32,413 nucleotides of DNA from Nannocystineae bacterium (GTDB lineage Bacteria; Myxococcota_A; Polyangia; Haliangiales; Haliangiaceae): positions 1 through 32,413 of the forward strand of contig SLNH01000427.1 in NCBI GenBank assembly GCA_007133195.1, given 5' to 3'. A program made the position numbers and the translations under genes. Positions 26,735 to 29,264 of the stretch are shown piece after piece (the stretch's first letter is position 1; each line of letters begins with the position of its first letter). Below the pieces are notes generated by a model. The model saw nothing but the letters and a program-made list of their open reading frames with translations. It made no database searches and was not told the origin of the DNA.

Positions 26735-27991
26735 TTACACGATGAACGCGACGCCGATGCCGACGACGGACGCGAGGGCAAAGTAAAGGATGATTCGGGT
26801 GCCGAACGCGCGTCCGCCTCCGATCACGGCGATGGAGCCCTTGACGACGAAGTTGGCGACGACGCCTACGGTGATCGCGACCGCCGCGAGCGAGACCGCC
26901 ACGTCGCCGGCGGCGGCCTGCCTCGAGACGGCGATGGCGACCGGATCGACATCGACCAGGCCGGAGATGGCGGCGACGATCACGACGGCTTCGCTGCCCG
27001 CGGTCTCGGCGGCGATCGCCGACACCAAAAGGACGACGCTTAGGACGAACCCCCATTTGAGCGCGGGCAGGAGCGCAAAGGGGTTTGCCATCTCCGGCCC
27101 CTCGGTTTCGCCTCGTCCCGTGCCGCCCAGGGCAGGGAGCCGGGGGACCGACGCGGCGAGCATCACGATCGCCATTGCGCCCATGGGCGGCAGGATCTGA
27201 AACGCGGTCTCCGCGCTCACCACCGCCGTGATCACGAGGACCCGGCCGAAAAGCATGGCGTTGGCCAAGAACACGGCGAGCTGGGCGGCACCGCGCATGT
27301 CGGGATCCTTGGCGACGGTTTGGGCCATCGTCGCCGTCACCGCGGTGGAGCTCGTGATGCCTCCCACGATCCCGGTGGCGCCCACACCGCGCTGCTTGCC
27401 GAGGATGCGGCTCAAGAAATAGCCCACGTAGCTGAGGCCGGCGATCAGGACCACGAACAGGCCGATGGCGCGTGGCGGTAGCGCGTCCCAGGGATCGGCG
27501 GCCTCGGTGGGCAGAAGGGGGATGACGATCGCGACGGCGATGAGGAGCTGCAGGGTCCCCGTGAGCTCCACGCGGCGCAGCTTTCCCACGACCGTGCTCA
27601 CCCAGGGCTTGGAGATCAAGAGCACCGTGGCGAGGATCGCGAGCGTCGCCGCGAGCAGGCGATCCTGGCTCACGAGCATGCCGAGGACGAGGGTGAACAG
27701 CGCCGAGATCTCGGTGGTGATGCCCGTGCTTTCGCTCGGCCGGTAGCGAATGTGCTGAGAGACGATGAGCACCCCGACGAGCCCGAGGATCCCGAGCGGG
27801 AGCCAGGGCAGCTCGGCGGCGAGGTATTGGGCGAGCCAACCGAGGAGGCCCAGCAGCGCGAAGGTGCGGACGCCGATCGGGCTGTCCTCGGCGTGGTCGG
27901 GCTCGCGCGTGACGTCGCGGTGCTGGCGCTCGAGGCCGACGAGGACGCCGATGCCGACGGCGTAAGCGATGTCGATGTACTCGGGAGGCAC
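26735..27991 (-). CDS. MgtC/SapB-DUF4010 membrane protein
   Basis: A 418-residue polytopic inner-membrane protein. It opens with an MgtC/SapB-type first helix (YAVGIGVLVGLERQHRD, residues 11-27) and a second conserved helix (GVRTFALLGLLGWLAQYL). The rest matches the DUF4010 layout with about ten further helices and a conserved-looking GATGIVGGITSSTAVTATMA segment near 205-225. Function of the family is not established; MgtC proteins are linked to Mg2+ stress and regulation of other membrane proteins. The start is a GTG at 27991-27989. Its first base is the last base of the 163-bp inverted-repeat element, so the ribosome binding region (AGGGA about 11 nt upstream) and any close promoter lie inside that element. 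Confidence 0.85.
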   Translation of the reverse strand: MPPEYIDIAYAVGIGVLVGLERQHRDVTREPDHAEDSPIGVRTFALLGLLGWLAQYLAAELPWLPLGILGLVGVLIVSQHIRYRPSESTGITTEISALFTLVLGMLVSQDRLLAATLAILATVLLISKPWVSTVVGKLRRVELTGTLQLLIAVAIVIPLLPTEAADPWDALPPRAIGLFVVLIAGLSYVGYFLSRILGKQRGVGATGIVGGITSSTAVTATMAQTVAKDPDMRGAAQLAVFLANAMLFGRVLVITAVVSAETAFQILPPMGAMAIVMLAASVPRLPALGGTGRGETEGPEMANPFALLPALKWGFVLSVVLLVSAIAAETAGSEAVVIVAAISGLVDVDPVAIAVSRQAAAGDVAVSLAAVAITVGVVANFVVKGSIAVIGGGRAFGTRIILYFALASVVGIGVAFIV

Positions 27992-28122
27992 TAGGGGGTG
28001 TCCCTAAAAGGCACGCACCACCTGGAGAGCCCCTGAAATCCCATGCATCGTTGCTCCTCGGTCATGGGGTACGGACCCACTCCCTCGTCGCGCCTCGCCT
28101 GGAATTCCATGTGCTTATCCAT
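27991..28122 (-). CDS. 43-codon ORF inside the inverted-repeat element
   Basis: On the minus strand an ATG at 28122-28120 opens 43 codons that end in the TAG at 27993-27991, the outermost bases of the terminal repeat. The product begins MDKHMEFQARRDEG and ends SRWCVPFRDTP; it contains two cysteines and no recognised motif. The TAG overlaps the GTG of the DUF4010 gene by one base (TAGTG). This could be chance, or a leader ORF giving translational coupling. There is no strong ribosome binding site. It is reported because of its exact fit to the element's end. Confidence 0.25.
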   Translation of the reverse strand: MDKHMEFQARRDEGVGPYPMTEEQRCMGFQGLSRWCVPFRDTP

Positions 28123-28153
28123 GAGGCACGCGGCATTTAGGGACACCCCCTAG
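27991..28153. mobile_element. 163-bp MITE/REP-like element with perfect 18-bp inverted repeats
   Basis: The left end CTAGGGGGTGTCCCTAAA (27991-28008) is the exact reverse complement of the right end (28136-28153). If the TA at 27992-27993 and 28151-28152 is a duplicated target, the element proper is 27994-28150. A TA duplication is typical of Tc1/mariner-IS630 type miniature elements. The octamer AGGCACGC occurs just inside both ends as a direct repeat. No transposase is encoded. It separates dapE from the DUF4010 gene inside a run of co-directional genes. Whether it is a MITE, a REP-type element or a large regulatory hairpin cannot be settled from one copy. Confidence 0.7.
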
Positions 28154-29264
28154 CGCTCGCCGCGGCGCCCGCGCGCTCCGTCGGCTCGGGCGGCGCGGCC
28201 TGAAGGACGCGGCGCAGGGTCTCGTAGTTGTGGGTGAGGTCAGCGACTTGGCAATACTCGGCGGGTTGATGCGCCTGGGCGGTGAGGCCGGGGCCGTAAT
28301 TCAGGGCCGGGATACCGGCCTCGGCGAGCCGCGCCACGTCCGTCCACGCCTGCTTGGGCGCCACGGGCACGCCGGCGCGCGAGACCACGAAGTCGTACAG
28401 GCGGCCGGTGGGCACCGCGCCGCTCGGTGAGCGATCCGTGATCTCGACGTGGGCGCGATCGCCGGCGAGCGCCCTGATGTCCGCCTCCGCCTCGGTGATG
28501 GTGCGGCCGGGCGCGAAGCGGTAGTTGACGTGGAGCTCGAAGTGATCGGGCACCACATTGCGGTAGCGACCGGCGCTCGCGCGCGTTGCGGACATGACTT
28601 CGAAGAAGGCGTGCCCTCCCACCTGGACCTCGCGGTGCTCTCGATCGGCGAGCGCCGCGAGGATCGGCGCGGCCTTGTGGATCGCGTTTTCGCCGTGCCA
28701 GGGCCGGGCGCTGTGTGCGCTGGAGCCGCGCAACGTGAGCGTGGCGTGGATCGAGCCCACGCAACCGACTTGGATCACGTTGTCGGTCGGCTCGCCCACG
28801 ATGGCGAGATCCACCTCGCCGAGCCAGGGGCAGGCGCTCAAAAGCGGGCCGAGGCCGCTGTCTTCGTGAGGCCCTTCCTCTTTGTCGTAAAACACGAGGA
28901 CGAGGTCCCAAGGCAGGGTGTCTCGATCGAGATCGTCGGCGAGGGTGAGGGCGACCGCGAGGCCGGACTTCATATCGCTCGCGCCGAGCCCGATCACGCG
29001 TCCATCGGTGATCGACGGTGCGGGATCGCCCTCGTGGGGTGGGACGGTGTCCAGGTGCCCAACGAGCGCGATGGCGGGGCGGGCGCCCGAGGGCCTGCCG
29101 GCGACGACGGCGTTCCCCACGCGTACGACTCGGTTTGGCGAGAATTTGGCCTTGGCCCAGGCCTCGATCTCGTCGCACAGGGCGCGCTCATCGCCGTAGA
29201 CCGAAGGCGTGCGCACCAGATCGAGCGTGCGGCGCGCGAGCCGCGAAGCCAAATCGGGGGCCAT
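28137..29264 (-). CDS. dapE: Succinyl-diaminopimelate desuccinylase (M20 family)
   Basis: A 375-residue zinc amidohydrolase of the M20/ArgE/DapE family that removes succinate from N-succinyl-LL-diaminopimelate in lysine and meso-DAP synthesis. Metal and catalytic residues are visible: H70 and D72 in GHLDTVP, D97 in GASDMKSG, the catalytic E129 with E130 in YDKEEG, and E158 in VGEPTD, with a late histidine in TAQAHQPAEY. The dimerisation-domain segment GSSAHSARPWHGENA is typical. It starts 3 nt after dapD stops, which supports DapE over other M20 peptidases. The last four residues (RGCP) and the TAA lie inside the terminal repeat of the adjacent element, so the native C-terminus may have been altered, well away from the active site. 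Confidence 0.93.
   Translation of the reverse strand: MAPDLASRLARRTLDLVRTPSVYGDERALCDEIEAWAKAKFSPNRVVRVGNAVVAGRPSGARPAIALVGHLDTVPPHEGDPAPSITDGRVIGLGASDMKSGLAVALTLADDLDRDTLPWDLVLVFYDKEEGPHEDSGLGPLLSACPWLGEVDLAIVGEPTDNVIQVGCVGSIHATLTLRGSSAHSARPWHGENAIHKAAPILAALADREHREVQVGGHAFFEVMSATRASAGRYRNVVPDHFELHVNYRFAPGRTITEAEADIRALAGDRAHVEITDRSPSGAVPTGRLYDFVVSRAGVPVAPKQAWTDVARLAEAGIPALNYGPGLTAQAHQPAEYCQVADLTHNYETLRRVLQAAPPEPTERAGAAASARGCP

Follow-up and report, generated by a model that had tools for sequence, protein, structure and literature searches.

MITEs are short non-coding elements with terminal inverted repeats, which occur in many dispersed copies. The normal definition of a MITE rests on its ends, the interior being dispensable. 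For IS630/Tc1-mariner MITEs, like those with ISAzs37- or ISMno11-type ends, the distinguishing features are a TA duplication, a CTAG target and the terminal repeats of an IS630 element. Duplications of TA or TNA are typical of DDE transposases.

CGTC- and GTAG-tagged REPs (Di Nocera et al. 2013, PMC3733652) are single hairpins of 20-40 bp that carry a CGTC or a GTAG tag. These palindromic repeats of the chromosome were identified in many phyla, close to stop codons and to the 3' ends of genes. The CGTC REPs are without a known transposase (PMC3733652).

The element described here is located on a contig (C178) of a 99%-complete short-read MAG of a Nannocystineae bacterium, assembled into 496 contigs with a total of 5.64 Mb; the whole stretch of 32,413 nt that was analysed is called the window. 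Like the IS630/Tc1-mariner MITEs, the element is short, has no convincing ORF, carries terminal inverted repeats and has a CTAG target, the TA of which recurs at either end, and an alphaproteobacterial sister family has IS630-like terminal repeats. Unlike these MITEs, it contains a structured core, for which the examined IS630 regions gave no match and which is common to elements whose ends match other IS. IS630 terminal repeats were identified for the alphaproteobacterial family, but not for the window ends. With the CGTC and GTAG REPs, the elements share the habitat and the contacts with stop codons, and the CGTC REPs are likewise without a known transposase. However, the elements are 160-270 bp long, are bounded by terminal inverted repeats, show TA duplications and have a different conserved core, and in size and motif they differ from the published description of CGTC REPs as hairpins of 20-40 bp with an unpaired CGTC tag and a CCA tail. 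REPINs with RAYT transposases resemble them in hairpin structure and in forming chromosomal populations, but the occurrence of Y1 genes does not follow that of the core, and co-occurrence with RAYT was not found.

The Element between dapE and the DUF4010 Gene

The following features were assigned:

27991-28153, no strand assigned: whole element, CTAG to CTAG, 163 bp, with exact terminal inverted repeats and homologous copies elsewhere in the genome
27991-28008, plus strand: left terminal inverted repeat CTAGGGGGTGTCCCTAAA; the same terminus in L003, an altered form in L002
28136-28153, minus strand: right terminal inverted repeat, found on its own or within decayed copies as well (L003, L010)
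28048-28098, plus strand: conserved core from the core-model search, model R1 match of 64.6 bits
28049-28065, minus strand: core flank A (CGTTGCTCCTCGGTCAT on the plus strand), which in the folded strand pairs with flank B (covariation, one antiparallel register)
28066-28078, minus strand: apical hairpin GGGGTACGGACCC, with a stem that varies between families and yet is complementary (flank and stem comparison)
28079-28095, minus strand: core flank B (ACTCCCTCGTCGCGCCT on the plus strand), covarying with flank A
28137-28139, minus strand: stop codon of the dapE-like gene (ORF 28137-29264), from the terminal repeat
27989-27991, minus strand: listed GTG start of the DUF4010/MgtC ORF (26735-27991; family match), abutting the element

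The initial annotation had described perfect 18-bp inverted repeats with TA just inside the outermost base at each end, and on re-reading both observations proved exact. The left arm (CTAGGGGGTGTCCCTAAA) and the right arm (TTTAGGGACACCCCCTAG) are exact reverse complements over 18 bp, and they form the only inverted repeat of this length with arms at most 400 bp apart in the whole window. In 60 first-order Markov sequences of window length, no such repeat was obtained at 18 bp, with a mean of 0.08 at 16 bp and of 0.57 at 14 bp. The TA is part of a CTAG on both ends of the 163-bp element, as in IS630/Tc1-mariner insertions. The sole ORF within the element, of 51 aa, is regarded as spurious, which leaves a short non-coding sequence with perfect terminal repeats, as in a MITE. 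Folding of the element as DNA gave z = -2.67. It can most safely be stated that the inverted-repeat observation is real and that the feature is MITE-like.

The site between dapE and a DUF4010 gene was likewise confirmed by family matches. On the minus strand, which carries both genes, a dapE-like gene (Peptidase_M20) is followed by the element and then by a gene with MgtC and DUF4010 matches. The frame of the dapE-like ORF enters the element, with the last codons (ARGCP) inside the terminal repeat, and its TAA stop codon at 28139-28137 is contributed by the element. The listed GTG start of the DUF4010 ORF at 27991 touches the other end.

Copies and Families in the Source Genome

A DNA search of its own genome with the element gave 18 matches, 17 of them at other places, and many of these have only the centre of the element in common. 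Four families were distinguished by their ends, A (CTAGGGGGTGTCCCTAAA), B (CTAGAGCCCATCTCAAAAATC), C (CTAGARCGSCGAYCRGTTTGAA) and D (CTAGTGCCTCGACCCAGGCGT), which are unrelated; their common core starts 57 nt from the left CTAG in most intact copies. Using the core model R1, 51 places were identified in this genome at E<=1 and 48 at E<=0.01, in several families, so that the many dispersed copies expected for a MITE are present. The initial annotation had named a single copy in the genome, together with conservation at this locus in all relatives, as a refutation of its reading. The first half of this condition does not hold, since about 50 cores at different loci were found, and its proposal of a non-autonomous, multicopy, TA-flanked MITE is supported.

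Family D, which has terminal repeats of its own, is present in many copies, and its full-length copies are mostly 90-99% alike. Six contigs of the source genome G000 (C260, C80, C464, C220, C478 and C188) end within D-family elements. This indicates that the repeats break the assembly, and the copy number is therefore a lower bound.

At two loci of this genome, L012 (contig C292) and L052 (contig C489), two elements are arranged in tandem with one CTAG in common, as expected if one element had inserted at the terminal target of the other. For families A and D, numerous ends were also seen that stand alone or are decayed and lack the remainder of the element (L153-L166). In a search for autonomous copies in the same genome, no facing second end bounding an IS was found for these partial ends.

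Distribution of the Core

The 50-nt core at 28048-28098 is common to elements with unrelated terminal repeats in the source genome and in at least ten phyla. With R1 at E<=0.01, it was identified in 17 of 56 genomes including its own, a few of them with a single weak match, and the copy number reached 106 in genome G001 and 26 in G005. An exact core pattern, in which C or G was allowed independently at two covarying sites, was present in at least 117 stretches of GTDB genomes. Among the matches listed, Myxococcota, Acidobacteriota, Verrucomicrobiota, Acidimicrobiia, Bacteroidota, Alphaproteobacteria, Elusimicrobia, Nitrospinota, Nitrospirales, Gemmatimonadetes, Eremiobacterota and Thermodesulfobacteriota were represented; these taxa are taken from record titles, and single ones may err, since "Bacillus sp. 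2B10" holds alphaproteobacterial-type elements.

The elements have a size of about 160 bp with a single core or of about 270 bp with a double core. In the double-core elements (L167, L188, L189, L197 and L204), an inverted second core and a middle hairpin were observed, and in L188 the second core has a matching loop.

A virus or plasmid as carrier was rejected: the exact core pattern is absent from IMG/VR, and for five alphaproteobacterial elements a search of 72,556 plasmids revealed a terminal-repeat match but no full one. In phage records, two weak matches to elements were seen at 71-74%. ORF clustering of the 117 core loci revealed no recurrent neighbour gene, the clusters being small and apparently made up of housekeeping genes, of translations of the elements themselves or of sets from the same genome. 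A known RNA family was rejected, as Rfam models at E<=1 gave no credible match for the window and 11 other loci, with one chance match of 13 bits against a gathering threshold of 100. No description of the core was found in open-access papers, and its novelty is judged against Rfam and these papers alone.

Structure of the Core

Covariation was analysed on 148 cores with 40 unique flank pairs, which are not independent by descent. The mutual information of the 17-nt flanks peaks on i+j=18, a single antiparallel hairpin register, with a mean of 0.152 compared to at most 0.040 on any other diagonal compared. C-G, G-C and A-T account for most of pair 9-9; pair 12-6 occurs as G-C or A-T, and pair 17-1 as C-G or T-A. 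In L168 and L178, which belong to one MAG, the apical loop is identical and the 9-9 pair is swapped (C-G/G-C). At steps 7/8, 10/11 and 14/15, T.C/C.T is found on the plus strand almost without exception, corresponding to tandem G.A on the minus strand. The apical stems are complementary and have about a hundred different sequences.

The register of the mutual information, the complementary stems and the types of mismatches together provide good support for a core that would fold as a single strand or as a cruciform. In the arms and the flank stem, the mismatches point to the minus strand (G.U 83 versus 41 and G.A 78 versus 28, in 50 arm families), whereas those in the apical stem point to the plus strand (G.T 21 versus 4 and G.A 20 versus 3), so that either strand may be the relevant one.

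Insertion Sites and Stop Codons

For 83 elements the ends were assigned, and TA is mirrored at both ends in 52 of them; 32 of these are symmetric, mostly with CTAG. About 18 elements have an identical TTA or TAA on both sides. In one asymmetric class, TTA is present on both sides in 9/9 cases, and the other 11 have mostly TAA.

When the 91 gene 3' ends facing elements were inspected, about 36 ended 0 to 8 nt from the boundary and 7 deeper, counts that are approximate because the gene calls are crude long ORFs. Many of the facing genes stop exactly at the terminal stop codon of the element. No strand bias of gene orientation relative to the element was identified (18 '--' versus 15 '++'), and a role as a cis-acting RNA was rejected on this basis.

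In Sphingomonas G057, an element is located at the TAG stop of secA. A secA query gave matches in 80 of 81 Sphingomonas genomes, and outside G057 the listed matches start at about query position 547, just past the edge of the element. Among these listed matches, no element was detected at the site; the flanks there are too diverged for the duplicated bases to be read. In 29 relatives with aligned secA ends, secA terminates without an element, and elements with 78-96% identity occur at other loci in several species. In two Sphingopyxis records (L197 and L214), elements with the same ends are present in the same pyrH/frr neighbourhood, which suggests an old insertion kept in place.

Terminal Repeats and Candidate Mobilisers

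A 32-nt query, the terminal repeat of Aureimonas and Sphingomonas elements, was searched in the plasmid collection. It matched complete IS630-like elements of 1055-1064 bp with CTAG or TTAG ends, namely ISAzs37, ISMno11, one each from Roseomonas and Sphingopyxis and an unannotated one from Polymorphobacter, and 23-26 of the 32 positions agree between the alphaproteobacterial elements and these IS. In seven fetched plasmid regions, five of them with a complete IS-length element, the core was absent when up to 4 mismatches per flank were allowed. On the Azospirillum ramasamyi plasmid unnamed7 (L373/L379), a 32-nt terminal repeat resembling the one in the Sphingomonas elements was seen on its own beside other hairpins.

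For family B, the end resembles that of a Leptospira weilii element annotated as IS5 (870 bp), AGAACCCATCTCAAAAAT, with 20/21 identical nt. Both ends and the TA flank agree, but the match is short and weak when taken alone (E=3), and no such IS was found in the source genome. Terminal repeats in common with an IS were identified in sister families, with IS from other hosts, and none were found in the source genome, which is a fragmented MAG. In three element-carrying alphaproteobacterial isolates, no IS with matching ends was found, the exact terminal-repeat pairs being about 187-190 bp apart.

The initial annotation had labelled the element IS630/mariner-like, which is not shown for the window element. 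Its own terminal repeat matched no annotated IS in the plasmid collection, and neither DDE_3 (IS630, PF13358) nor DDE_Tnp_1 (IS4/IS5, PF01609) gave a match in its assembly. A resident IS630 or IS4/IS5 as mobiliser was rejected on the basis of the Pfam searches; this absence is not conclusive, since a fragmented short-read MAG can lose IS copies. The reported lack of a transposase in the window agrees with genome searches for PF13358, PF01609 and PF01797, which gave no match on the window contig for these three families. As a whole, the initial interpretation is partly supported.

Eight Y1/RAYT-like genes (L085-L092) are present in the source genome, several of them with an N-terminal GGARxGAGRKR motif. 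RAYT/Y1 was nevertheless rejected as mobiliser, since over 56 genomes it showed no co-occurrence with the core and no convincing core was identified beside the eight genes (best 12.5 bits). G001 has 106 cores without any Y1 match, G030, G037 and G051 also contain cores and no Y1, and the Y1-rich genomes G003, G007 and G024 have no core.

Origin of the Element

The feature is probably a MITE-like non-autonomous element which keeps one structured core and carries the terminal repeats of different TA-duplicating IS. That one core may travel between such terminal repeats is strongly suggested by the conservation of the core with divergent ends, moderately to strongly by the one good match to IS630 ends, and weakly by the one short match to an IS5 end. 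The scarcity on plasmids and the absence from IMG/VR count against this explanation, since both are unusual for an ordinary MITE. So does the lack of an IS with matching ends in the source genome, in the three alphaproteobacterial isolates and, for the window ends, among plasmids.

Alternatively, some enzyme (HUH, recombinase or RNA-based) might recognise the folded core, and the ends would need only complementarity. Such a core-specific mobilisation is fairly unlikely. It agrees with the internal position of the conserved part and the variable ends, with the preference of the fold-type mismatches in flank stem and arms for the minus strand, with the scarcity on plasmids and the absence from the viral scan, and with the lack of a matching IS in the host genome. 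However, one family has terminal repeats in common with an IS630-like IS, TA and TNA duplications were seen, no recurrent neighbour gene was present in the 117 loci, and Y1/RAYT was excluded as a general partner.

For an ordinary IS630/Tc1-mariner MITE, the interior would be the leftover of one IS and the conservation of the core would reflect common ancestry. The CTAG target, the TA duplication and the IS630-like ends of the alphaproteobacterial family fit this explanation, but we consider it unlikely: the core sequence and its covarying hairpin are kept across phyla while the terminal repeats have diverged beyond recognition, the seven plasmid regions, five with a complete IS-length element, contained no core, and 3-bp TTA/TAA duplications occur too.

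It is quite improbable that the element is a structured RNA or DNA beneficial to the host, such as a terminator, an mRNA 3' stabiliser or a chromosome-structuring site, which was dispersed by transposition and then kept. The patchy distribution (17/56 relatives), the lack of an orientation bias against transcription (18 '--' versus 15 '++') and the lack of an Rfam match argue against such a role, although the hairpin is strong, many copies are located at gene 3' ends or stop codons, the core is conserved across phyla and the two Sphingopyxis records (L197, L214) have the same gene neighbourhood.

That the element is REP/REPIN-like and was moved by RAYT (Y1) transposases is highly improbable, since the 106 cores of G001 occur without Y1, the Y1-rich G003, G007 and G024 are without core, the best core near a Y1 gene reaches 12.5 bits and the duplications are of the TA type, even though the elements are palindromic, intergenic, mostly chromosomal and often supply stop codons, as GTAG REPs do (PMC3733652), and eight Y1 genes are present in the source genome.

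According to the preferred explanation of a core carried between the terminal repeats of different IS, a MITE-like element would have inserted at a TA (CTAG) on the dapE/DUF4010 boundary. It would belong to a cross-phylum group in which lineage-specific terminal repeats and the conserved central hairpin core are separable. The terminal repeats appear to be those of TA- or TNA-duplicating DDE IS, IS630-like in alphaproteobacteria and IS5-like for family B, and are presumably acted on in trans by the transposase of a resident IS. They may have been exchanged between IS families, with the core keeping its fold and key bases while the ends and the apical stem change. Selection would then act on a folded single strand, either ssDNA during transposition or replication, or RNA; as a working guess, the core might be a cis-acting folded signal which aids transposition.

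Implications

In these elements the interior is the conserved part, with a covarying hairpin and tandem G.A across phyla, and the ends change with the IS lineage. This points to an unrecognised role of the interior, as a transposition signal, as a single-strand structure or in a use by the host. The core sequence model could serve to classify many unannotated intergenic repeats. A simple account of the survival of the elements in dense genomes would be that the TA targets fall on stop codons, which are then restored by the duplication. More tentatively, it is possible that the core represents a structured module of DNA or RNA, selfish or serviceable and of very wide reach, which has been packaged repeatedly between unrelated TA-duplicating IS ends (IS630, IS5 and others) in at least ten phyla. 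If this is true, one hairpin would have colonised the chromosomes of these phyla by changing its vehicle.
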